DNA from: a virus
Reading direction: 5' to 3' (one strand)
Length of the DNA: 36,488 nucleotides
IMG/VR virus record: IMGVR_UViG_3300032173_000019
Location: 1-36,488 of that record
In this document: positions 2,718 to 34,521 of the stretch, piece after piece
Layout of the letters: the number at the start of each line of letters is the position of its first letter
Position numbering within the stretch: position 1 is the stretch's first letter
Position numbers and translations under genes: made by a program
Notes under the pieces: model-generated
Told to the model about the DNA's origin: nothing
The model's database searches: none
The model's input: only the letters and a program-made list of their open reading frames with translations

Positions 2718-3533
2718 ATGCGTGACAGGCAGGATAACGACAAGGTTGGAAAGTCCCTTGACTTTATATCTTCATCTTATGTTCCGAATGGCACCGTTTT
2801 GCTATGTAGCTTTGGCAAAGATTCAATGGTTTTGCTTCATCTTATAAGAAGATGCTTAGGGAATATCCCAGTTGCATATTACCATTTGCCAGGGCAGAAT
2901 GACAGAAATGAATTTGCAAACAAGGTAATAAGAGAACTCAACTTAATGGTTTACGATTTACAGGCATCAACCAGAGATATTGTTTTTCACCATGAAGACA
3001 AGTTTGATTTAGTCTCTATCGTCCCGATATCGAAAGACAAGTACATATCCTTTTTCCATGAGATTACAGATGACGGGTCTATGCAATGCATATTGAATTT
3101 CCTTAAGGGGCCATTCTATTCGGCAACAAGTATTCCATGGAATGTTTTTTTCCATGCTCATAAGAGCAGCGATATTGATCCCATGTTTGGCCCAGTTCCG
3201 CTCAAATCGGAAATAAAGATGAATGATAGCATAAAGATATGCTATCCGTTAAGAGATTGGACGGATGAAGACATCTGGAATTATGCAGTAAAGAATAATT
3301 TAATGATTAATGAATTGTGCTATAACAAAGACAATAACTTTGCCCCGTTCTTAGACAAGAGATACAATAACAATTACTATTCTGCTTGTACAGAATGCAT
3401 AAATCCGGTAAAGCCGAAATTTGTTAGATGTAGAATAGCTAATAAAGAAGTTCTAAATATTCGATTCGGTGACAAAGAATACTACCATAAGAAATTCAAT
3501 TTTTACAACGACCTTTGTAAGCTAATTCTTTAG
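2718..3533 (+). CDS. PAPS-reductase-like PP-loop (adenine nucleotide alpha-hydrolase) protein
   Basis: 271 residues. The PP-loop motif SFGKDS (31-36) binds the pyrophosphate of ATP or an adenylyl group. PLRDWTDEDIW (177-187) is the signature that follows in phosphoadenosine-phosphosulfate reductase and sulfate adenylyltransferase subunit 2 relatives. A Cys pair, ACTEC (223-227), lies near the C-terminus, with a further Cys nearby. Possible chemistry is nucleotide activation of a sulfur or amide substrate. The gene has no clear ribosome site, is visibly more AT-rich than its neighbours, and sits alone between two virion genes, which suggests recent acquisition. Phage PP-loop proteins are also known in DNA or tRNA thiolation systems; none of their partners is adjacent here. 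Confidence 0.75.
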   Translation: MRDRQDNDKVGKSLDFISSSYVPNGTVLLCSFGKDSMVLLHLIRRCLGNIPVAYYHLPGQNDRNEFANKVIRELNLMVYDLQASTRDIVFHHEDKFDLVSIVPISKDKYISFFHEITDDGSMQCILNFLKGPFYSATSIPWNVFFHAHKSSDIDPMFGPVPLKSEIKMNDSIKICYPLRDWTDEDIWNYAVKNNLMINELCYNKDNNFAPFLDKRYNNNYYSACTECINPVKPKFVRCRIANKEVLNIRFGDKEYYHKKFNFYNDLCKLIL

Positions 3534-8108: not shown

Positions 8109-9416
8109 ATGAAACTGCATTTTAGAAGCGTAGATGGAAGCATCTTATCCGTTGCCTATAAATGCCAGCAGGAGAAGATAGCCGACATCTCCTGCTCTAT
8201 TGTTGAGACTGAGGATAATGCCAGGGAGCAGTACAAAGGGCTTCTCCGGTTTTATCATGACAACTGGCAAAGCAAAATAGACAAGGATACCGTGGTTATC
8301 TATGACCAAGTAAGGCGGGGAGAAGAAGCCGATAGACTAAAGGATGCCGGGTTTGCGGTTATTGGCGCCGGCAAGTTCAATGACCGGCTCGAACTGGATC
8401 GCAAATTTGCTATGGAATGGACTCAGCAGCACGGGATTGGCATTCCGGAAAGCTGGTCGTTTACGGATTACAACGAGGCTACCGAATTCATCAGGGAATA
8501 TCCCGGGCGGCTGGTATTCAAGCCTTCCGGGAATCTTCCTCCCGAGGTAACCTATGTAAGCCAGGACGAGGGGAATGCCGATTTGTTATATCACCTCCAG
8601 AGGCTGGAGCATCTGTCTAAGGGTGCGGAGTTCATTCTTCAGAAAGTGATTGACGGCATAGAGATATCCACCGAGGGTTGGTATTACAGGGGGGAATTGA
8701 TACCGCCTCCCAATGGTACTATGGAAGAGAAGAAGCTGATGACGGGAGGGCTGGGGGCCGCCGTTGGTTGCGCCGGCAATGTCGTCTGGCTCTGGAATTA
8801 CCCGGGCTCCTACATGTACGATCATACGCTGAAGAAGTTGGAGCCGGAGTTGGTTAAGGAGAGCTATACCGGGTGTCTGGACATCAATACCATCTATGTT
8901 CCAGAAGAGAATAAGCTGTACGCCCTGGAATACTGTCCACGGTTTGGCTATGCCGGGATAGAGAACCTCTGCTCCCTTATCCAGGCGAGCGGGTCTCACA
9001 TGTCCGAAGTGTTCTGGCTTTGGGGAATGGGCAAGCTGGAAAGCATACCTGCCGTGCCTTTTATGTCAACTGTCATTATCGTTACGATTCCCAGGTCTAA
9101 AGACGGTAGTGTCCCCAGGCATGAATACATCGGCGGGAGTATAGATTACTCCAAGTTTTACTGGGGAGACGTGCAACTGGACAGGGAATCGGGCAACCTG
9201 GTTTCTGCTGGGGTTGATGGGATTATTGCTACCCTGGTAGAAACTGCTCCAACAATAGACGAAGCATTAGCTAAAGCTTATGCTAACCTTGATGGGTTGA
9301 TACTGTCCAATAAGCAGTACCGGACGGATATTGGGTGCAGGTACAAACAGCAGTTCCCAATTATTGAGAGGGTAGATAAGAGGTATAGACAAGCAGCCCA
9401 GAACTCTACTTCTTAA
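8109..9416 (+). CDS. PurD-like ATP-grasp ligase
   Basis: 435 residues. An N-terminal alpha/beta part with VVIYDQVRRG (62-71) is followed by ATP-grasp elements: LVFKPSG (135-141, the ATP-binding Lys), QKVIDGIEISTEG (178-190), KKLMTGGLG (208-216), GCLDIN (255-260) and LEYCPRFG (273-280). The order and wording match phosphoribosylamine-glycine ligase (PurD), which joins glycine to phosphoribosylamine using ATP. The usual Asn of the E-Y-N-x-RFG metal site is Cys here and the following Asp-Pro is missing, so the substrate may differ. No other purine gene is present. As the last gene of the rightward unit, next to virion genes, it may form an amide bond on a virion or host molecule. Confidence 0.72.
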   Translation: MKLHFRSVDGSILSVAYKCQQEKIADISCSIVETEDNAREQYKGLLRFYHDNWQSKIDKDTVVIYDQVRRGEEADRLKDAGFAVIGAGKFNDRLELDRKFAMEWTQQHGIGIPESWSFTDYNEATEFIREYPGRLVFKPSGNLPPEVTYVSQDEGNADLLYHLQRLEHLSKGAEFILQKVIDGIEISTEGWYYRGELIPPPNGTMEEKKLMTGGLGAAVGCAGNVVWLWNYPGSYMYDHTLKKLEPELVKESYTGCLDINTIYVPEENKLYALEYCPRFGYAGIENLCSLIQASGSHMSEVFWLWGMGKLESIPAVPFMSTVIIVTIPRSKDGSVPRHEYIGGSIDYSKFYWGDVQLDRESGNLVSAGVDGIIATLVETAPTIDEALAKAYANLDGLILSNKQYRTDIGCRYKQQFPIIERVDKRYRQAAQNSTS

Positions 9417-23361: not shown

Positions 23362-23931
23362 ATGGGGATTAATCGGGATAGTGATGTTCCGGCCACGATG
23401 GAGGTTAATGATTGTGTGGTGGAGATGTGTAATCTGGCTGGGATAGATATTGGGAGTAGGCAGGGGATAGTTCATGCGGTTATTTGCATGCTTAGTCTTG
23501 GTTGGAATAAAGATGACATTATCAACAAGACCAGGACGCTTCGGGTAACTAAGAGGACGATCAGGGGAATTCAGCTACGCAAAGACTATGCCAGGTGGTT
23601 TAACCATTACGAAACCCTACCTGACAGAAGCTTGGAAGTAGCCAGGAGATTGCAGGCAATTGGGGCGCCCCGAGCCGTAGCCAGGCTTCTAAAATCCGCA
23701 ACAAGCGAGTTTGATTCTATTTCCAACAGGGCCGCCATGGAGATTGTCAAAGGCAGCGGAGCATCGGCAAACGTCGAAAACAAACCCATTATCAACGTCG
23801 TGATAAGCAACGACCTCGCCAGACGCCTTAACGAATCGGCAAAACTTGTTTACAAAGACATCGGCAAACCCGAACCTCTCCAACTCCCGGTAGACGATAA
23901 TGCAGAAATTGTCGCAGGACAAAATAACTGA
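23362..23931 (+). CDS. Probable terminase small subunit
   Basis: 189 residues; GAGAGG is close to the ATG. A helical N-terminal half contains a possible helix-turn-helix (about 50-75: GWNKDDIINKTRTLRVTKRTIRG), as expected for a DNA-recognising small terminase. A middle helical part could oligomerise, and a Val/Ile strand segment lies at about 141-150. It overlaps the large terminase by 32 bases. Assignment rests mainly on position and the predicted HTH; the sequence itself is not one I recognise. Confidence 0.6.
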   Translation: MGINRDSDVPATMEVNDCVVEMCNLAGIDIGSRQGIVHAVICMLSLGWNKDDIINKTRTLRVTKRTIRGIQLRKDYARWFNHYETLPDRSLEVARRLQAIGAPRAVARLLKSATSEFDSISNRAAMEIVKGSGASANVENKPIINVVISNDLARRLNESAKLVYKDIGKPEPLQLPVDDNAEIVAGQNN

Positions 23932-25405
23932 ATGCAGGGAGTACTGTCAGGGCAGCCTCTATCACCTCGCTGAAGCACTCGGCTTCAATAGGCTATACCC
24001 CCCACTTCATTACCAACTATGCCAAGAAATCTCCAATCTTAACAACATCCATGGCCTCTTCCTCCTCCCCAGGGGCGTATTCAAGACTACCCTCGGAAGC
24101 ATAACATTCTGCATCTGGCTAATCATCCAAGACTACCTCAAGACCATCGGTAAACCAGGACGCGAAATCCGTATCCTCCTCGCCAAGGAAAACGCCACCC
24201 TCGCCGAACACGACCTCTCCTCAATCGAGTCCATCATGGATAACAGCGAAATCATCAAGGGATTCTTCCCCGATCTCGTCCCATCCCCAACTACAAGATC
24301 ACGGTGGAACCGACAAGAAATGACGGTCAACAGAAAATCCAACTGGCCAGAGGCAACAATAACAACCATCGGCGTAGGCGGCGCTGCCCAGGGTCAACAT
24401 TTTGACGTCTGTATTTTTGATGACGTCATAGGAGACGATGCCAAGAATTCCGACACTGTCATGCAAAGAACCATCGAGTGGTTTGACTATGCCCAATCCC
24501 TCTTGATATCCCCAACCCAATCCATCGTCAGAATCTACGGCACCAGATGGTCTAAACGCGACGTCTACCACCATATCATCGACAACTATCCCAGAGTCAA
24601 GACATACACCAGAAGCATTATCGAAGATAATCAATCCATCTTCCCAAGCCTCTACCCCATCCATGTCCTTGACGAGATGCGCGAACGTAACCCAGTCCAT
24701 TATTACGGCCAACTCTGCAATAACCCAATCGACCCCGGCAAATGCGAATTCAAGCCGGAATGGCTCAAGAAATACGAACTCCAAAGAGGCAAAAACGACG
24801 AGCTTCTCATCAAACTGGAAGACGACCCATCGCCTCTCGATATCCGTAACTTCGACATCGTTGGAGCATACGACCCCAGCGTTGACGAATCCTCCAGAGC
24901 CTCAAGACGAGCCATTGTCTATACCGCCATGGACAGCAAACAAAGAGTCGTTATCCTCGACTGCTACGCCTCGAGAGAGTCCGTAAACTCCGTTCTGGAT
25001 AAAATCTTCACCATGTTCCATAAATGGCATCCCAGAAAATTCAGCATCGAGTCCGTAGCACTGTCCAGGATATACATAGACCTCGTCCAGAAAGAAGCCA
25101 AGATCAGAAATACCTGGATTGCCGCCCAACCCTTCAAGGTCAGCTCACGGCAATCAAAAGACAGCAGGATCAGGGATTCCATCCAGCAGGTAGCCGCAGA
25201 AGGCAGGCTATACGTCTTTCCAGCATTACGCGACCTCCAACAAGAGTTTATTGACTTCCCTAACGGCAAAACCAAGGACATCCTCGATGCCCTGTCCATG
25301 TGCATCCAGACCCATCAACCTCCAATCAGCGAGGAAGATAGGAAGTACGCAGACGACTATGACGATTACATCCTGATGTCCAGGAACAAAGTTACAGGAT
25401 ATTAG
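23900..25405 (+). CDS. terL: Terminase large subunit
   Basis: 501 residues. LLPRGVFKTT (55-64) is the terminase variant of Walker A (PRGxxKS/T type); FDVCIFDDVIG (168-178) is Walker B with the catalytic acidic residue next to it; YGTRW (213-217) is the coupling region. The C-terminal RNase H-like nuclease shows AYDPS (323-327, D325), SIES (382-385) and DILDALS (460-466). It powers DNA packaging into the prohead and cuts the genome. Its length is typical. It begins inside the end of the small subunit gene. Confidence 0.92.
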   Translation: MQKLSQDKITECREYCQGSLYHLAEALGFNRLYPPLHYQLCQEISNLNNIHGLFLLPRGVFKTTLGSITFCIWLIIQDYLKTIGKPGREIRILLAKENATLAEHDLSSIESIMDNSEIIKGFFPDLVPSPTTRSRWNRQEMTVNRKSNWPEATITTIGVGGAAQGQHFDVCIFDDVIGDDAKNSDTVMQRTIEWFDYAQSLLISPTQSIVRIYGTRWSKRDVYHHIIDNYPRVKTYTRSIIEDNQSIFPSLYPIHVLDEMRERNPVHYYGQLCNNPIDPGKCEFKPEWLKKYELQRGKNDELLIKLEDDPSPLDIRNFDIVGAYDPSVDESSRASRRAIVYTAMDSKQRVVILDCYASRESVNSVLDKIFTMFHKWHPRKFSIESVALSRIYIDLVQKEAKIRNTWIAAQPFKVSSRQSKDSRIRDSIQQVAAEGRLYVFPALRDLQQEFIDFPNGKTKDILDALSMCIQTHQPPISEEDRKYADDYDDYILMSRNKVTGY

Positions 25406-25487: not shown

Positions 25488-26396
25488 ATGGTGGATATTG
25501 GTATAGCTATTACAACATATTCCGGTTATGAAAGACCTGAAGTTCCATTTCATGCCGATGGACGTGTAAGATGTCTTCTGTCTACTATTTGTCAAGACTG
25601 CTTTTCCAAGGAGATTGAAATTTCCGTGTTTGATGACGGAAGCAATAATTATAAAGGGCAACAGGCCCTTAAAAATGTTTGTGATAGTTTCAATGTCAAA
25701 TATTATTGTTCTCCTGTTTGGAAAGGTATAAGTGGAAACTATAACTTTGCATGTTCAAATATGCACCATAAATGGATTGCTGTTCTCAGTGATGATACTA
25801 TCTTTTCCAAAGGGGCTATCGAACCGATGTTATATTTCTTAGAAAATAACCAAGACAAGAAAATAGCTTCTGCTGGATGGTCGGTAGTAAATGCCTTCGA
25901 TCTTGTTAAAGATGGATTTCTTGTTAGCCTGGAATCATTTTATACTGCTTTTCCATCCTGGATGAGTAAAATTGATTTAAATAAATTATCAAATAGACCG
26001 GAACAGGGTACATGGGAATGCCATAAATTTCCAGTTCTATGTAGATGGAGTAGCGGGCCGGCATTGGTAGTTAATAGAAATATCTGGGAAAAGAAAGGCG
26101 GCTTCTTCGAGAAGGTATTGTGTTTTGAGGAAGACTTCTGTGACTGGGTGTGGAATCATACTGATTATTTTTGTGTCAATATTGCAAGTCCCCCTATATA
26201 CCATCTGGTTAATGGTTCTACAATAGGACTTCATGAAGATGCAGACTGTTATAAGAACAATGCCGCAAACTGGGCCTTGCGTCTTGGTGGAGTAGGAGAG
26301 ACGTTTGATAATAGAGGAACAAAGGCGCTGAAGAAAATAGAAAGTATCGGGCAAGTGACTTTTAAATATCTTAGTTGGATAAGGGAGACAACATGA
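25488..26396 (+). CDS. Family 2 glycosyltransferase
   Basis: 302 residues. The N-terminus IGIAITTYSGYERP and SVFDDGS (46-52) is the GT-A nucleotide-sugar site; LSDDTIF (100-106) is the DxD-like metal motif; CFEEDFCDW (212-220) supplies the late acidic pair of the acceptor site. It is expected to move a sugar from a nucleotide donor onto a glycan or protein. The gene is visibly more AT-rich than terminase and portal on either side. It lacks a strong ribosome site, is preceded by a 19-codon open frame (25428-25487), and shares ATGA with the next gene. It looks like an inserted accessory gene. Confidence 0.82.
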   Translation: MVDIGIAITTYSGYERPEVPFHADGRVRCLLSTICQDCFSKEIEISVFDDGSNNYKGQQALKNVCDSFNVKYYCSPVWKGISGNYNFACSNMHHKWIAVLSDDTIFSKGAIEPMLYFLENNQDKKIASAGWSVVNAFDLVKDGFLVSLESFYTAFPSWMSKIDLNKLSNRPEQGTWECHKFPVLCRWSSGPALVVNRNIWEKKGGFFEKVLCFEEDFCDWVWNHTDYFCVNIASPPIYHLVNGSTIGLHEDADCYKNNAANWALRLGGVGETFDNRGTKALKKIESIGQVTFKYLSWIRETT

Positions 26397-26559: not shown

Positions 26560-28512
26560 GTGATCAAGCAACTTAAAATCCCCGACGAGAAGCAGAAGAA
26601 GATTGTAGACTTCTTTAACCAGGAAATCCAGTCTGCGTTGCGTTCCAGAGCCGAGCTTGAACGTCATTGGACAAAGCAGTACGGGATGTTTGAAGGGAAG
26701 CCGTCCCAGGAAGTCAAGACTTTCCCCTGGCCCCAGGCCAGCAACGTCGTTATCAATATCTTGTCTATCACAACCAACGCCTTTATCGCTCGGCAGATGA
26801 ATAGCATGTTCCAGTACCGCCCCTTCTGGACGGTTACCGCCCTGAGCAAGAAGTGGACTGACCACGCCGTCCCTACCCAACGCCTTCTCGAATACGCCCA
26901 GCGTTTTGAAATGAAGCTGGTCAAGAACATCGTTAACTATTTCTACGACATGGCCCTCTACGGCACCGGCATCGCCAAGATTCCCTGGCTCTTAGAAGTA
27001 AAAGAAGATAAGAAATACAACGATTCCGGCGATATTACCAAGTCAATGGTTAACTCGGCAGACGGCCCCAGGTTTATCCCTGTTTCAATCTACGATTTTA
27101 TCGTTCCCATCCAATACGCCACCGATATTCAATCCGCTCCCTGGATTGCCCACCGGTTCCGGCTCCGTTACCCCCAGATCAAGGAGCGTGAACGGCTGGG
27201 ATTCTACATGAATGCCGACAAGGTAGAAAAGGCTTTTAAAATCCATGCCGATTCCATCCAGACGGAAATCGAACGAACTCGCTACCTTGAGCATTCCCAG
27301 ACCGCGGAGGAGTATGAAATCTTTGAAATATGGGCGGATTACGACTACGATGACGACGGCATAGAAGAAAAGTGTGTCTTCACGATCAACTTCGATTCCA
27401 ATACCATTCTTCGCGCCGTCCTCAATCCGCTTAATCATCGTTTACGCCCATTCATTGCAACCCAATGCTTCCCCAGGCCACACAGCATCTACGGTATCGG
27501 CTTCGGGCAGAAGCTGGAAAGACTTCAGGAAGCCATCACAACCCAGGCTAACCAGGCTATTGATAACGCGACAATAGCCAATACGAGATGCATAACCTAT
27601 ACCGCGGGCTCTGGAGTAAAACCTCCCCTGAAGATATATCCCGGCAAGGCTTTTAAAATAACAAATCCCGGCGATCTTGGCTCATTCCAACTTGGTGACA
27701 TCTATCCATCAGCCAACCTGATCATCAACTTTCTCCGCGACGTCTGTGAAAGAGAAACGGGAATCAGCGATTATTCCCTCGGCAAGGAGTCTTCAGTTGT
27801 CAAGAGCGGAGCTACGGCCACTTCTACCTTGGCCCTGATCCAGGAAGGCTCCAGGCTCTTTGACTTCCTCTTGAAGAATCTCAGGCAGGATATGTCTGAC
27901 ATCGCTTACCAAGTCTATAGCCTGTACTCCCAGTTCAAACCATCCGGCCTGGTTTTCAGCTTGCTTGATAAAGATGGCGAGCTGGTTCAAGAAACATGGA
28001 ATGCCGCTCCGGAAGACACTCGCCGGTGCCTACTATTCGAGCTTACGGCATCCAGCATCTACACCAACCAGATGCTGGAAAGAGAGTCCTGGGTTCAGCT
28101 TCTTAACATGATCATGGGGTATTATAACCGTATCTTTGAGGCTGCCCAGCTAATCGTCTCTCCCCAAGCGCCCAAGGAACTCAGGGATTTAGTCGGCAAG
28201 ATGGTTACTTCAGGAACCTTTATTATGGATCGAATCATAGACCGCTGGGGCATCCTCGACAAGGAAAGAGTAATCCTACAGCCCGAGGATATTCAGTCCC
28301 TTATCAGTCAGGCCGAAGCGCAAGCTCCGGCAAGAGCGCAGCAACAACAAATGACGGAAATGTTAAAGGAGGCCATGAAACATGGCGGCAGAAGACAAGA
28401 GCCTGGAAGACAAGAGCCTGCTGGCAGGCCGGGAGGAAGGGGAGGGCCACCGCTCCCTGGACCCGCAGGAGTTGGAGGACCTTCAGGACCTCCGCCTCCA
28501 CCCAGGCTATAA
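26560..28512 (+). CDS. Portal protein
   Basis: 650 residues with a GTG start; GAGG lies upstream. FPWPQASNVVINI (55-67) and YDMALYGTG (around 130) are typical early segments of podovirus-type portals, followed by a long 'clip and stem' part (RPHSIYGIGFGQKLERLQ, around 305-322) and a Gln-rich crown helix near 590-605. It forms the dodecameric ring for DNA passage. Residues from about 608 onward are Gly/Pro-rich, overlapped in another frame by the next gene, and probably not part of the folded ring. Confidence 0.82.
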   Translation: MIKQLKIPDEKQKKIVDFFNQEIQSALRSRAELERHWTKQYGMFEGKPSQEVKTFPWPQASNVVINILSITTNAFIARQMNSMFQYRPFWTVTALSKKWTDHAVPTQRLLEYAQRFEMKLVKNIVNYFYDMALYGTGIAKIPWLLEVKEDKKYNDSGDITKSMVNSADGPRFIPVSIYDFIVPIQYATDIQSAPWIAHRFRLRYPQIKERERLGFYMNADKVEKAFKIHADSIQTEIERTRYLEHSQTAEEYEIFEIWADYDYDDDGIEEKCVFTINFDSNTILRAVLNPLNHRLRPFIATQCFPRPHSIYGIGFGQKLERLQEAITTQANQAIDNATIANTRCITYTAGSGVKPPLKIYPGKAFKITNPGDLGSFQLGDIYPSANLIINFLRDVCERETGISDYSLGKESSVVKSGATATSTLALIQEGSRLFDFLLKNLRQDMSDIAYQVYSLYSQFKPSGLVFSLLDKDGELVQETWNAAPEDTRRCLLFELTASSIYTNQMLERESWVQLLNMIMGYYNRIFEAAQLIVSPQAPKELRDLVGKMVTSGTFIMDRIIDRWGILDKERVILQPEDIQSLISQAEAQAPARAQQQQMTEMLKEAMKHGGRRQEPGRQEPAGRPGGRGGPPLPGPAGVGGPSGPPPPPRL

Positions 28513-30422: not shown

Positions 30423-31334
30423 ATGCCTACTACAAGAACATCAAACCTTTCAGCCTTATTGTATCCGGGGCTGAACAAGGTGTTTTTCAACGAATACAAG
30501 GGAATCCTCACCCAGACGGAATACGACAAGATTTTCAACGTCGAGAATTCCGGTCAGAGCTACGAGAAGACCTACGAAATGACGATGCTGGGCGGGAGTA
30601 TTCCGGAAGTCGGCGAGGGAGAGCAGATCATATACGTCGATCCCGTTGGGGGCAATACCAAGACGTTTACCCATAAGAAATGGGGACGGGGGTTTGCCAT
30701 CACGGAGGAAGCGTATGACGACGATCTGTACAAGACTATCGGCGTGAATGCTACCAAGGCGCTTAGCAAGGCGTCTGCCAATACTATTGAAGTCCAGGCG
30801 GCAAGCGTGCTAAACAACGCCACCAGCACGACTTACTACACCGGCTTCGATAGCTTGGCTCTTGCCAGCACGGCGCATACGGTGTTGTTTACCGGTGGAA
30901 CCTATGCCAACCGTCCAAGCACCCTCGGCTCTCTTGGCATTACCACTCTTCAGGCCGCAGTTCTGCGCGTTGAGAAATGTCCCGATCAGGATGGAGTGAT
31001 TGCCGGCCTTCGGGCCAAGCTTCTGGTCATTCCCCCCGATCTCCGGTTCATCGCTCATGAAATCCTGAAGAGCGAGTACAAACCCTTCAGCACAACAAAC
31101 GAGGTCAACGCTCTTGCCTCAGAAGGACTCAGCTACTTCGTCTGCCATTATCTCTCCAGCACGACATTCTGGGCTGTACTGGCCGACAAGCACAATCTGA
31201 AGTTCTTTTGGAGACGGAAACCAAGATTCGATTCCAGCGATGACCATGCTACCGGCAATGCGCTGTTTAAGGTGACGCAGAGGATGGTGGTGGGTTTCGA
31301 TGATTTTAGAGGTTTCGATCTCGGCAACACATAA
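30423..31334 (+). CDS. Major capsid protein (gpT-like HK97 fold)
   Basis: 303 residues; AAGGAGG precedes the ATG. The segment FAITEEAYDDDLY (90-102), then TKALSKASANTIEVQAASVLNN (110-131), LASTAHTV (147-154) and a C-terminal WAVLADKHNLKFFWRRKP / VTQRMVVGFDDFRG part follow the pattern of the Mu gpT-type major capsid family. Hydrophobic strands and no signal peptide. It builds the head shell. The gene is among the most conserved-looking in the window. Confidence 0.82.
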   Translation: MPTTRTSNLSALLYPGLNKVFFNEYKGILTQTEYDKIFNVENSGQSYEKTYEMTMLGGSIPEVGEGEQIIYVDPVGGNTKTFTHKKWGRGFAITEEAYDDDLYKTIGVNATKALSKASANTIEVQAASVLNNATSTTYYTGFDSLALASTAHTVLFTGGTYANRPSTLGSLGITTLQAAVLRVEKCPDQDGVIAGLRAKLLVIPPDLRFIAHEILKSEYKPFSTTNEVNALASEGLSYFVCHYLSSTTFWAVLADKHNLKFFWRRKPRFDSSDDHATGNALFKVTQRMVVGFDDFRGFDLGNT

Positions 31335-31354: not shown

Positions 31355-31386
31355 CCCTGGCGTATGCCGTTTGGGCTATGCCAGGG
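31355..31386. promoter_or_regulatory. Hairpin after the capsid gene
   Basis: CCCTGGC (31355-31361) pairs with GCCAGGG (31380-31386), with inner GCC/GGC pairs. No T-run follows. It could be an RNA processing or attenuation site between the abundant capsid message and downstream genes. The same 7-base stem sequence occurs at 20546-20564. Confidence 0.5.
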
Positions 31387-31405
31387 AGTAGTAAGGAGGT
31401 TATCT

Positions 31406-31642
31406 ATGGCCCAGTACACAGCGGAAGGTTCAGGAAACAAGTTCCTGATTAAGGATGCTGCCGGTAATCCTGTCTTTGGCGTGGACTTTGTAGGCGAGGG
31501 AGGAACTACCTCGTTTCCGGTCTTGGTTATGGATGTTAGCGGGGTTAGTTACTATTATTGGCCAAACAGCTCCGGTGTTCTCAGGTATGGGACAACGGCG
31601 CCTACTACGTCAACCCAGGATACGGCTGGCAGCGCCGTATAA
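31406..31642 (+). CDS. Small late Gly-rich protein
   Basis: 78 residues from ATG 31406, with AAGGAGG 5-6 bases upstream; a longer frame from 31364 covers the hairpin and is not needed. Beta-rich (AEGSGNKFLIKDAAGNPVFGV, SFPVLVMDVSG) with a Thr/Ser-rich tail. Resembles small head-fibre or decoration domains. No catalytic residue. Confidence 0.6.
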   Translation: MAQYTAEGSGNKFLIKDAAGNPVFGVDFVGEGGTTSFPVLVMDVSGVSYYYWPNSSGVLRYGTTAPTTSTQDTAGSAV

Positions 31643-31649
31643 GGTTCCC

Positions 31650-32309
31650 ATGACTGACTTGATGGGTCGAAAGCCATCTGTCAACGGTTGTGTTTTTGGG
31701 GATGACATTGTTATTGTCTCCAAGAAGATACAGAACCTCTATCCCTTTCTGAAATATAACCACATGCCATTCCTTCCGGAGAGGGATAGAGAATACAAGT
31801 ATCTCTTGACCGAGGAATACAGGCGGGGTTATGCCTGCTTCAAGCATGCCGTGGCAAGTATTCTTCAACCAAAAGTTATTGTTGAGATAGGCATCGGCGC
31901 CGGTACTGGCGCCCTTGCCTTTATGCATGCCGTTCCCGGAGCTATGTATATCGGCATAGATAACAATTCCAAATGCAGGATTGATGGTTGGGATTTTACC
32001 GGTTTTGTCAAAGATTGGATGGAGAAACTGGGATTTAGTTATAAATTCATCATCGAGGATACGAAGAAGATGAGCAGCCTTCCCCAAGGAGACTTAATCC
32101 ATGTTGACGGGGATCATAGCTTTGGTGGCGCCTACAACGATGTCAGGCTGGCTATCAAGTCCCAGGCTCCCTGGGTATTGGTTGACGACTGCCGGGATCG
32201 GGCTGTTATGGCAGCGACTTTCGCTTACTTGAACGATAGCGATGCAGATTACGACTGGTCTTACTTCGAGGATACCTGGACTGGAAATTTGCTACTGAAG
32301 AAGAAGTGA
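31650..32309 (+). CDS. SAM-dependent class I methyltransferase
   Basis: 219 residues from ATG 31650 (AAGG upstream); an in-frame start at 31533 would overlap the previous gene. VEIGIGAGTGAL (78-89) is the SAM-binding loop, IGID (101-104) the acidic strand end, and DLIHVDGDHSF (148-158) the motif of the Methyltransf_24 group. Members are usually small-molecule or sugar O-methyltransferases. The stop is overlapped by the next start (GTGA), so it is made together with the radical SAM enzyme. Confidence 0.8.
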   Translation: MTDLMGRKPSVNGCVFGDDIVIVSKKIQNLYPFLKYNHMPFLPERDREYKYLLTEEYRRGYACFKHAVASILQPKVIVEIGIGAGTGALAFMHAVPGAMYIGIDNNSKCRIDGWDFTGFVKDWMEKLGFSYKFIIEDTKKMSSLPQGDLIHVDGDHSFGGAYNDVRLAIKSQAPWVLVDDCRDRAVMAATFAYLNDSDADYDWSYFEDTWTGNLLLKKK

Positions 32310-33643
32310 GGTTGATCTTGGCAAAGGTGTTACTAACCGGCAAGTATAGCGCTATCGAACCTCTGGGATTGATGTATCTTGCGGGAGCGTTAAAAGAAGA
32401 CAACCACGAGGTGAATATTCATCTTCTGGAAGACGACTACAAGATCGATTTCTCCAAGTTGGTTTATTACGGTAAGCCGGATTATGTCGGCTTTGCCGCC
32501 TATACCGGCTTTCATAAGGAGATATTCGAGAAAGCCAATATAGTTAACAATGGATCAAAGACCATAGCAAAGACCATAATCGGCGGCCCCCATGCCACGT
32601 TTTTCGCCGATGACTGCATCTTGCATGCCCATTACGTAGTAAAAGGAGAAGGGATACAGGCTATCAAGGACATCTGCAATGGGAATGCAAATCCCGGGAT
32701 CGTATTTAATCCCAAATTAGTTCATCCCGATGATATTCCCATGCCCTGCCGGGACACGCTTTACGAAGATTACAGGTTTAGAGACAACAGAATCAAAAGC
32801 GTGATGACGTCTTTTGGCTGTCCAGGTAATTGCTGTTATTGTTACAACGATTCTTATCGTAAATTGTACGGCGATAATTTCAAGGTTCGCCAGCGATCCG
32901 TTGACTTGGTAATCGAGGAATGCCTGGGCCTGAAGAAATATCCTTTGGATTTGATCTTCTTCCAGGACGATTGTTTCGGCATTTCCCCGGATTGGTTGAG
33001 TGATTTCGCCGCAAAGTACAGGGACAAAGTCGGCGTCCCATTCCATTGCCAACTGCGTCCCGAGGTTATAAATGACGATAGAATTGAGTTATTAAAGACA
33101 GCCGGATGCCATGGCGTGACAATGGCGATTGAGAGCGCTTCTGAGAAGGTTAGGAGACGTTACTTAAATCGCAAGATGTCAAACGATCAAATCCTGGATG
33201 CTTGTCGGAAGATAAAAGAAGCGGGATTCCGGCTGAGGACGGAACAAATGCTCGGACTGCCTGGGACTACCATTGATGATGAACTTGAGCTGTTACGTAT
33301 GAATATCCGTATCCAGCCGGATATTGCTTGGGTTTCCATGTTTACTCCATACCTGGGGACTACGTTGGGCGACTGGTGCAAGGATCGAGGCTTGTACAAC
33401 GGGACGAATGATGACTTGACCGGGACGTTCTTTTCCGATTCCAAGTTGAACTTTTATCCTGGCAGGATAGCTATGACGAATATGCTTCTCAGGATATTCT
33501 CGACTTGTGCCAAGATGCCTCATGGCGACAAGTTGGCTCAGTCCTGTTTACGCAACGGTGTTTCAGACATGGATGGTTGGTTTCATGCAGTCAAAGATCA
33601 TCTTTATGATTCCTTATTATATAACACGAGGGGGATTTTATAA
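32306..33643 (+). CDS. B12-type radical SAM enzyme
   Basis: 445 residues, GTG start overlapping the methyltransferase stop. The N-terminal ~150 residues have the cobalamin-binding Rossmann pattern (PLGLMYLAGAL, 19-29; IIGGPHAT, 91-98). GCPGNCCYC (171-179) provides the CxxxCxxC 4Fe-4S motif at C172, C176 and C179. Later segments FFQDDCFG, CHGVTMAIESASEKV and EQMLGLPGTT follow the radical SAM barrel. Such enzymes methylate or rearrange unactivated carbons of natural products, sugars or lipids. The next gene starts at its stop (TAATG). Confidence 0.87.
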   Translation: MRLILAKVLLTGKYSAIEPLGLMYLAGALKEDNHEVNIHLLEDDYKIDFSKLVYYGKPDYVGFAAYTGFHKEIFEKANIVNNGSKTIAKTIIGGPHATFFADDCILHAHYVVKGEGIQAIKDICNGNANPGIVFNPKLVHPDDIPMPCRDTLYEDYRFRDNRIKSVMTSFGCPGNCCYCYNDSYRKLYGDNFKVRQRSVDLVIEECLGLKKYPLDLIFFQDDCFGISPDWLSDFAAKYRDKVGVPFHCQLRPEVINDDRIELLKTAGCHGVTMAIESASEKVRRRYLNRKMSNDQILDACRKIKEAGFRLRTEQMLGLPGTTIDDELELLRMNIRIQPDIAWVSMFTPYLGTTLGDWCKDRGLYNGTNDDLTGTFFSDSKLNFYPGRIAMTNMLLRIFSTCAKMPHGDKLAQSCLRNGVSDMDGWFHAVKDHLYDSLLYNTRGIL

Positions 33644-34521
33644 TGAGCAGTCAAGAGACAGTTAAGATTTGTCTTCCATCGGGAATTGGAGACTGCTCGT
33701 GGGCCGTCTCAAAATTGATTAATGCCCCCGAATGGCCAAGAGTAGAGATTGAAGTAGCAAGTGGATGGCCATTTAGAACCCATCCGTATTTCGAGATGCT
33801 TGGGAAGAAGTCAACGTATGGTCAGTTTGGATTTGATGATATTGTCGCTTTTGAGAAGGTTAACCCATACAGAACATGGAAAGAGCTTGTTTCAAGAGGA
33901 TATGGCTGTTACTACATTCAGCCAAATATACATCTTGAAACCAGGCCTCTTCATGAGTATCTTCCCGATCTTCCAACCAACTATCATTATCCATTGGATA
34001 TTCCAGACCTAAAATCATCCAGGTTGTATAAGAAATACTTTCAGCCCCTGGAAGAATATCCTCGCTGGGTTGGAATTAGCGCGGCATCCTACCGGGGTGC
34101 CAAGGCCTGGAATACCTGGGAGTTGGATTCCTGGGCCGATCTTTGCCTAAAGCTCATTGCCGATGGCTACCATATTTGCCTTATGGGAGGCAAATGGGAT
34201 GACCTGACGGATGAGCTTGAATTCCATCTTCCCGTGTCCCCCGATGACGTTCTGAACATCGTTGGCAAGACAACTTTCCCGGAAGCCTGCGCAGTCCATA
34301 AGCTCTGCAAGTTCTATATCGGCTTCTCTTCTGGCCTTGGCATTATCAGAACCGTAATGGAACTTCCGACAATTATGTTGTGGCCAGACCATCAGCAGTT
34401 GCTTAGTACTTCTTGGGCTGACCCAGAGGACTTAGAAAGCAAGAAATATATTGCCTTGCCTTACACTACACCCGATGATGTATACAGGGCATTTTCTATA
34501 CAGGCAGGAAAATATTCTTAA
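33643..34521 (+). CDS. GT9-like glycosyltransferase
   Basis: 292 residues, ATG overlapping the previous stop; AGGGGG lies upstream. SGIGDCSW (13-20) is the N-terminal Gly-Asp loop, GISAASYRGAKAW (144-156) and CLMGGKWDD (179-187) the nucleotide-sugar domain, and FYIGFSSGLGIIRTVMELPTIMLWP (about 224-248) the heptosyltransferase-type acceptor-side motif. Family members (GT-B fold, ADP-heptose transferases) add sugars to cell-surface lipopolysaccharide. It probably adds or exchanges a sugar on the target of the upstream radical SAM and methyltransferase. Confidence 0.78.
   Translation: MSSQETVKICLPSGIGDCSWAVSKLINAPEWPRVEIEVASGWPFRTHPYFEMLGKKSTYGQFGFDDIVAFEKVNPYRTWKELVSRGYGCYYIQPNIHLETRPLHEYLPDLPTNYHYPLDIPDLKSSRLYKKYFQPLEEYPRWVGISAASYRGAKAWNTWELDSWADLCLKLIADGYHICLMGGKWDDLTDELEFHLPVSPDDVLNIVGKTTFPEACAVHKLCKFYIGFSSGLGIIRTVMELPTIMLWPDHQQLLSTSWADPEDLESKKYIALPYTTPDDVYRAFSIQAGKYS

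Follow-up and report, generated by a model that had tools for sequence, protein, structure and literature searches.

To our knowledge, glycosylation of the virion by enzymes that the phage itself encodes has been proven in only a few mycobacteriophages. Corndog carries an O-methyltransferase (gp35), glycosyltransferases (gp36-37) and a GlcNAc transferase (gp38) between its portal and protease genes, and these modification enzymes are made in infected cells and were not found as parts of the virion (PMC4351075). Two further publications, which cite Freeman 2023, report virion proteins of Che8, Corndog and Myrna as glycosylated (PMC12363180, PMC11256854). Pelagimyophages carry LPS glycosyltransferase genes in a hypervariable region where two of the genomes are set apart by cassettes of radical SAM genes; the region was interpreted as serving host O-chain modification (PMC7029224). 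Similar glycosyltransferase sets were taken as host O-antigen modification in a review of jumbo phages (PMC7824862). In PBCV-1, A064R/A061L supply viral glycosyltransferase and methyltransferase domains that assemble the tip of the capsid N-glycan and O-methylate it (PMC9614988). Deoxygenation or C-methylation of sugars is known from AprD4 and GenK/GenD1 of aminoglycoside pathways (PMC5461906). Here we describe a viral locus in which enzymes of these kinds lie together behind a capsid gene.

The enzymes behind the major capsid gene

The window that we analysed, 36,488 bases long, is an entire linear IMG/VR virus record. The genes relevant to the analysis are:

23900-25405, terminase
25488-26396, plus strand, GT2 glycosyltransferase (PF00535, 1.6e-11), between terminase and portal
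26560-28512, portal (SU10_portal)
30423-31334, plus strand, major capsid protein (PF25209 Phage_capsid_4, 4.6e-16; phrog_371, major head protein), the upstream landmark of the slot
31406-31642, plus strand, small beta/Ser-Thr-rich protein of 78 aa (longest reading 31364-31642, 92 aa), between the capsid gene and the enzymes
31650-32309, plus strand, class I SAM methyltransferase (MT; Methyltransf_24, PF13578, 5e-6)
32306-33643, plus strand, B12-binding radical SAM enzyme of class B type architecture (rSAM; PF04055, 7.5e-22; PF02310, 3.8e-11)
33643-34521, plus strand, GT9-like glycosyltransferase (GT9; GT-B, heptosyltransferase family; PF01075, 2.1e-9)

The initial annotation had described three consecutive, overlapping enzymes inside the virion operon. 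MT, rSAM and GT9 are indeed present where it had placed them, and their Pfam families were confirmed, as were the two junctions, a four-base overlap of MT and rSAM (GTGA, 32306-32309) and a one-base overlap of rSAM and GT9 (TAATG, 33641-33645). The location in the virion operon also holds, with the genes of the major capsid protein and of the small protein preceding the enzymes. Scans for promoters and terminators did not reveal a clear break, and promoter hits were at chance level. The G+C content of MT, rSAM and GT9 (46-47%) is close to the window average (46.2%) and thus does not indicate a very recent import. Hydropathy revealed no clear transmembrane segment in these three proteins or in the GT2, and no nucleotide-sugar synthesis gene was recognised within the window, so that a host donor has to be assumed.

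The MT clears PF13578 narrowly (27.8 bits, cut-off 26.3) and fails the sugar O-methyltransferase subfamily TIGR04371 (11.7 against 44 bits). Most of its 43 relatives come without GT9 and without rSAM, and Methyltransf_24 by itself is therefore uninformative. In an unrelated phage (L003), a homologue 44% identical over 120 residues, the core of the MT, lies one gene from a GT9, amid further putative glycosyltransferase and methyltransferase genes.

The rSAM exceeds both of its Pfam cut-offs (PF02310, 43.3 bits against 32.1; PF04055, 78.7 bits against 29.5), and its CxxxCxxC motif is intact (GCPGNCCYC), C172, C176 and C179 being invariant among 13-14 homologues. Its AlphaFold model (pLDDT 78, pTM 0.80) matched AprD4 best in Foldseek (TM 0.75/0.74; 19-20% identity), with MgmA (9ccb), TsrM, CysS and TokK among the other top matches. 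By domains, motif and fold the protein is classed as a B12-binding (class B type) radical SAM enzyme, for which cobalamin binding and an activity in methyl transfer or as a dehydratase are predicted. It was assigned to no named equivalog, since it scores far under the cut-offs of all of them, including the AprD4 diol dehydratase equivalog of NCBIfam (NF033070, 63.2 bits against 500).

The GT9 passes Pfam Glyco_transf_9 (37.5 bits against 22), the match to the GT9 profile and to WaaF (solved relative 1psw) falls in its C-terminal half, and it retains the N-terminal G(I/V)GD motif. It falls under the NCBIfam heptosyltransferase equivalog cut-offs (TIGR02195, 27.1 against 134.6 bits; RfaQ, 24.9 against 467; TIGR02193, 13.2 against 185.3). 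Orthologues in L001 (79% identity), L002 (77%) and L124 (55%) make the protein alignable from end to end across four phages, and in all four the WaaF donor-site sequence NDSGLMH reads SSGLGII, with D and H replaced by S and I; being conserved, this replacement is not decay. The distant GT9 of L003 retains both residues. Family membership therefore does not reveal the identity of the donor, which, judging from this site, likely differs from ADP-heptose. A GT9 AlphaFold model was poor (pLDDT 41) and was left unused. No GT9 homologue was found by tblastn in cultured phages (50,697 phage records), and a GT9 profile scan gave nothing beyond L001 and L002.

The GT2 is a fourth enzyme, outside the trio of the initial annotation. 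A viral scan with it found no relatives; it shares 39% identity with the N-terminal half of a GT2-methyltransferase fusion in L001, which adjoins the GT9 there. By this similarity the two appear to be the same kind of part in different positions, and the GT2 of the window probably serves the glycan function of the slot enzymes too.

A post-capsid slot and the association of rSAM with GT9

The same slot holds MT and GT9, with or without rSAM, in the related contigs L001, L002 and L124 and in part in L050, so that chance does not account for the arrangement. The capsids of L001 and L002 are about 88-89% identical to that of the window, and both slots lack the rSAM. In L002 an MT (79%) is followed directly by GT9, and in the DNA alignment with the window the unaligned stretch, 32298-33663, is the rSAM gene between collinear MT and GT9; in L001 the 469-aa fusion overlaps GT9. 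The more distant L124 (capsid 56%, portal 49%, rSAM 50% identity) has the order capsid, small protein, rSAM, SPASM-type rSAM, Methyltransf_23 MT and GT9, and the start of its rSAM overlaps the stop of the small gene. In L050 (capsid 57%) the capsid and small-protein genes are followed by an MT with 68% identity to its L124 counterpart, after which the contig ends. A small protein with a YYYWPNSSGVLRYGTTxPT tail lies between capsid gene and enzymes in the window, L001, L050 and L124, and is divergent in L002; in the window (31406-31642) it is possibly a decoration protein and a candidate acceptor. In distant capsid relatives from cultured phages, the slot is occupied by cement/adaptor and hypothetical genes, with no annotated glycosyltransferase, methyltransferase or rSAM.

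The position of the slot is thus fixed and its content modular. GT9 together with some methyltransferase is present in all four phages with a fully sequenced slot, the MT family and the gene order vary, and the rSAM is optional, as the two closest relatives lack it. The initial annotation had taken the three genes as one coupled unit, named conservation of the trio and its order in related contigs as the check, and regarded independent occurrence of the genes as speaking against it. GT9 with some MT stood this comparison, whereas a fixed trio did not: the genes are independent to the extent that L001 and L002 do without the rSAM and the MT is swapped for other methyltransferase families.

The coupling that did recur is that of rSAM with GT9. 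Searched singly, the rSAM protein had no relative among viruses and a single archaeal one (GTDB), and tblastn against the cultured phages (50,697 phage records) found no close relative, giving partial matches of 22-26% identity and a short one of 36%, which covered 19% of the query, from Streptomyces phage SF3, fecal phages and a Microcystis phage. The rSAM and GT9 proteins of the relatives gave one 24% match or none among cultured phages. A profile built from the window rSAM aligned with three archaeal relatives reached 80 viral loci and exposed a viral clade, and the view of the rSAM as a one-off insertion was dropped. The nearest viral relatives, 50-36% identical, form a clade that is mostly viral. 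In a tree of 28 sequences, 12 viral rSAMs cluster (support 90/94), the window with L124 and L125 with L126 are sisters (100/99), and the archaeal L053, L112 and L114 fall just outside, some branches being long and the deep order unsure. Another tree, also with long branches, joins the window rSAM with L053 and L112/L114 (99/99).

Of the nine records whose rSAMs are closest to that of the window among viruses, eight, from three unrelated lineages, also encode a GT9 in the rSAM operon; the contig of the ninth, L131, starts a short way before the rSAM gene, so that the genes ahead of it are unseen. Records with more distant viral rSAMs have a GT9 in 0/12 and 5/50 cases (5/62), and in three of these five (L166, L170, L202) the rSAM is included in long glycosyltransferase-rich islands just before tail genes. 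Fisher's test gives p of about 1e-6 per record and about 1e-3 with the three lineages counted once each, figures that serve as guides only, as the records are metagenomic fragments and non-independent. The module sits behind the capsid gene in the window and L124. In L125-L128 it comes after Ser/Thr-rich repeat proteins, the run consisting of collagen-like and Thr/Pro-rich repeat proteins, rSAM, GT4 with FkbM MT, MT24 and a GT9-domain protein of 701-716 aa, with nearly all genes overlapping. In L129, L130 and L132 it lies between Phage_tail_S and tail genes, in the order Phage_tail_S, a further gene, GT4, GT4, GT9, rSAM and tail genes. The additional glycan enzymes in these runs are thus GT4, FkbM MT, MT24 and MT23, and overlapping junctions were seen again in L124, L126 and L129. 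The rSAM-GT9 association is real and extends beyond the phage family of the window, in keeping with the functional coupling initially proposed, at least for this pair.

Gene neighbourhoods also give clues to the rSAM substrate. A homologue at E <= 1e-25 was present in 48 of the 247 genomes drawn from an archaeal phylum, and the archaeal relatives L053 and L112/L114, in separate genomes, adjoin genes for a HAD phosphatase, a KDO-/PseF-type cytidylyltransferase, an HpcH/HpaI aldolase and an epimerase. Among viral relatives, those of L135 and L137 come after HddA-like and HddC-like genes, that of L134 lies within a GMD/GDP-fucose-synthase-like run and that of L133 accompanies PseF-like and epimerase-like genes, with an RmlC-like gene also among the neighbours in L133-L135 and L137; these viral neighbours score below NCBIfam equivalog cut-offs and are read generally as sugar kinase, nucleotidyltransferase and epimerase. 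The glycan role put forward in the initial annotation gains from these sugar-nucleotide clusters around viral and archaeal relatives alike. Together with the AprD4 fold match, they make a sugar the best-supported substrate class, on which the rSAM may carry out C-methylation or deoxygenation.

Proposed function and competing explanations

We read the locus as a modular cassette for glycan tailoring and transfer in a late (virion) operon, with a virion protein as the likeliest acceptor, and give this reading a probability of roughly 0.5. GT9, with the help of the GT2, would transfer a sugar from an activated donor, the MT would O-methylate a sugar of that glycan, and the rSAM would change carbon, either by C-methylation, like GenK/GenD1, or by removing a hydroxyl through radical chemistry, as AprD4 does. 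Translational coupling would hold the enzymes of the cassette together. Late expression and structural neighbours make a virion protein (the capsid, the small post-capsid protein or the tail) the likeliest acceptor; in each of the three lineages the module is embedded in a structural operon, and the repeat proteins directly before the module in L125-L128 contain 21-54% Ser and Thr. The overlap of the small post-capsid gene with the rSAM gene in L124, the soluble character of the enzymes by hydropathy and the Corndog precedent point the same way. That the virion is the acceptor has, by our estimate, about even odds.

In the main competing explanation, the same enzymes would instead change LPS, capsule or other glycans of the host envelope and so keep further phages from superinfecting the cell or progeny from re-adsorbing. 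LPS heptosyltransferases make up the GT9 family, with WaaF as the nearest solved relative, and host modification is the published reading of glycosyltransferase- and rSAM-rich hypervariable regions in pelagimyophages (PMC7029224) and of glycosyltransferase clusters in cyanophages (PMC7824862). We nevertheless consider this explanation rather unlikely, though it keeps appreciable weight: the module has a late virion-operon location in three lineages, the cassette is without a transmembrane Gtr-like protein or a flippase, and the virion-type repeat proteins ahead of the module in L125-L128 are plausible O-glycan acceptors.

An explanation without sugars would have the rSAM, and in L124 also the SPASM-type rSAM, act on a virion protein or peptide, while MT and GT9 would make separate decorations. 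Some B12-dependent radical SAM relatives are C-methylases of proteins, for instance MgmA, one of the top fold matches, and SPASM-type enzymes, of which L124 has an extra one, are known mostly from peptide modification. The neighbours of the rSAM clade, which in archaea and viruses are sugar-nucleotide and glycosyltransferase genes, argue against it and render it improbable. DNA modification was dropped: genes for hydroxymethyl-base synthesis were not seen, and we know of no DNA glycosylation by the GT9 family.

Slot content differs among close relatives, the MT family is freely exchanged, and homing endonuclease genes, an HNH gene in the L001 slot and a LAGLIDADG gene inside the L002 capsid gene, may help this exchange. 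That the three enzymes are unrelated morons, gathered by recombination at such a hot spot and sharing no pathway, is nonetheless hardly probable given the joint occurrence of rSAM and GT9 in three lineages, far above control records, the recurring overlaps in L124, L126 and L129, and the about equal divergence of rSAM, GT9, capsid and portal between the window and L124, which suggests long joint inheritance.

Returning to the cassette that would modify the virion, a broader proposal is that the virus-specific B12 rSAM clade, GT9 and methyltransferases make C-branched or deoxygenated sugars coating the virion (capsid or tail glycans) in several unrelated lineages. This we advance tentatively, as a possibility that falls short of even odds. 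If true, such glycans would be a phage use of chemistry so far known from antibiotics. With the rSAM-GT9 module recurring in structural operons of unrelated uncultivated phages, engineering of particle or host-surface glycans would be widespread and would include radical carbon chemistry. The module can serve as a genomic marker for finding such phages, and its enzymes have a directly testable substrate.

Comparison with described systems

As in systems of the Corndog and Che8 kind, the window has glycosyltransferase and methyltransferase genes inside the virion operon. Corndog (cluster O) shares the placement of a methyltransferase and glycosyltransferases in the head operon, but belongs to another phage family, and neither a radical SAM enzyme nor a GT9 is described there. 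The pelagimyophage region likewise is a variable, glycosyltransferase-rich part of a phage genome with radical SAM cassettes, yet it belongs to large myophages, lies beside tail fibres and is dominated by GT8, and the pair of B12 rSAM and GT9 is not described in it (PMC7029224). PBCV-1 A064R fuses glycosyltransferases and a methyltransferase much as L001 fuses GT2 and a methyltransferase, whereas PBCV-1 is a eukaryotic virus whose system has no radical SAM step and uses unrelated glycosyltransferase families.

AprD4 and GenK/GenD1 share superfamily and class of domain architecture with the rSAM, and AprD4, a 1,2-diol dehydratase crystallised with the aminosugar paromamine, is its nearest solved fold; they differ in belonging to secondary-metabolite pathways rather than to phages, and AprD4 in its low identity. 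WaaC and WaaF resemble the GT9 in the C-terminal donor domain and the N-terminal motif, but the similarity is weak and the donor-site D and H are replaced in the four phage orthologues. Gtr-type O-antigen conversion differs in that its multi-helix membrane proteins GtrA, GtrB and Gtr have, by hydropathy, no counterpart among the MT, rSAM, GT9 and GT2 of the window.

Searches of open-access papers gave us no description of a B12 rSAM-GT9 module. Phage methyltransferase and glycosyltransferase sets in virion operons, the proven capsid glycan enzymes of PBCV-1 and radical SAM cassettes in a phage glycosyltransferase region are already known. What is unusual about the present locus is that its B12 radical SAM enzyme belongs to a clade made up mostly of viral members and linked to GT9.

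The small post-capsid gene and endonuclease insertions

Immediately 3′ of the capsid gene of the window lies a gene for a small protein:
31406-31642, small post-capsid protein.
In this phage family the protein carries YYYWPNSSGVLRYGTTxPTxSTQDxAGxAV, and a divergent version, YYLWVDSNGDLRIHTAxPTDQDSDGTVVGTQT, stands behind the more distant capsids of L059 and L062. It may serve in capsid decoration.

Endonuclease genes were found here in both closest relatives of the window, L001 and L002:
L002, 7486-9033, capsid gene, split by an endonuclease gene
L002, 8183-8743, LAGLIDADG endonuclease gene within it
L001, 7602-8318, HNH endonuclease gene, between capsid and small post-capsid genes
In L002 the capsid homology picks up again at 8794, past the LAGLIDADG gene, and this insert is likely an intron or similar homing element. 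The HNH insertion falls in the same variable slot that holds the cassette.

Other genes of the window

25488-26396, GT2 gene, flanked by terminase and portal
8109-9416, 435-aa protein with weak PurD-like ATP-grasp (phosphoribosylglycinamide synthetase) similarity, under the Pfam cut-off
2718-3533, PAPS-reductase-like protein
The GT2 gene is probably a recent arrival, because its third-position G+C (31%) is far below that of the flanking terminase and portal genes (60-62%).

Repeat proteins and glycan genes in other phages

L125:250-7941 and L128:2-2125, Ser/Thr-rich repeat proteins
L124, 9268-10209, second radical SAM gene, SPASM-type
L135, 4721-5908, sugar-epimerase-domain ORF
The repeat proteins, encoded upstream of the radical SAM-GT9 cassette in an unrelated phage group, contain TPSLSISATP and SGTSGSSGT repeats, with Ser+Thr as high as 54%, and are possible O-glycosylated fibres. 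The SPASM-type gene of L124, a more distant relative of the window, lies within a glycan cassette. The L135 ORF, from a viral record with a more distant radical SAM relative, runs through a long GV repeat (GVGVGV...) ahead of its domain, and its start site or assembly is uncertain. Three further such records (L166, L170 and L202), from a phage group distinct from the others, carry long islands mixing glycosyltransferase, methyltransferase and B12 radical SAM genes, inserted immediately ahead of the tail genes.
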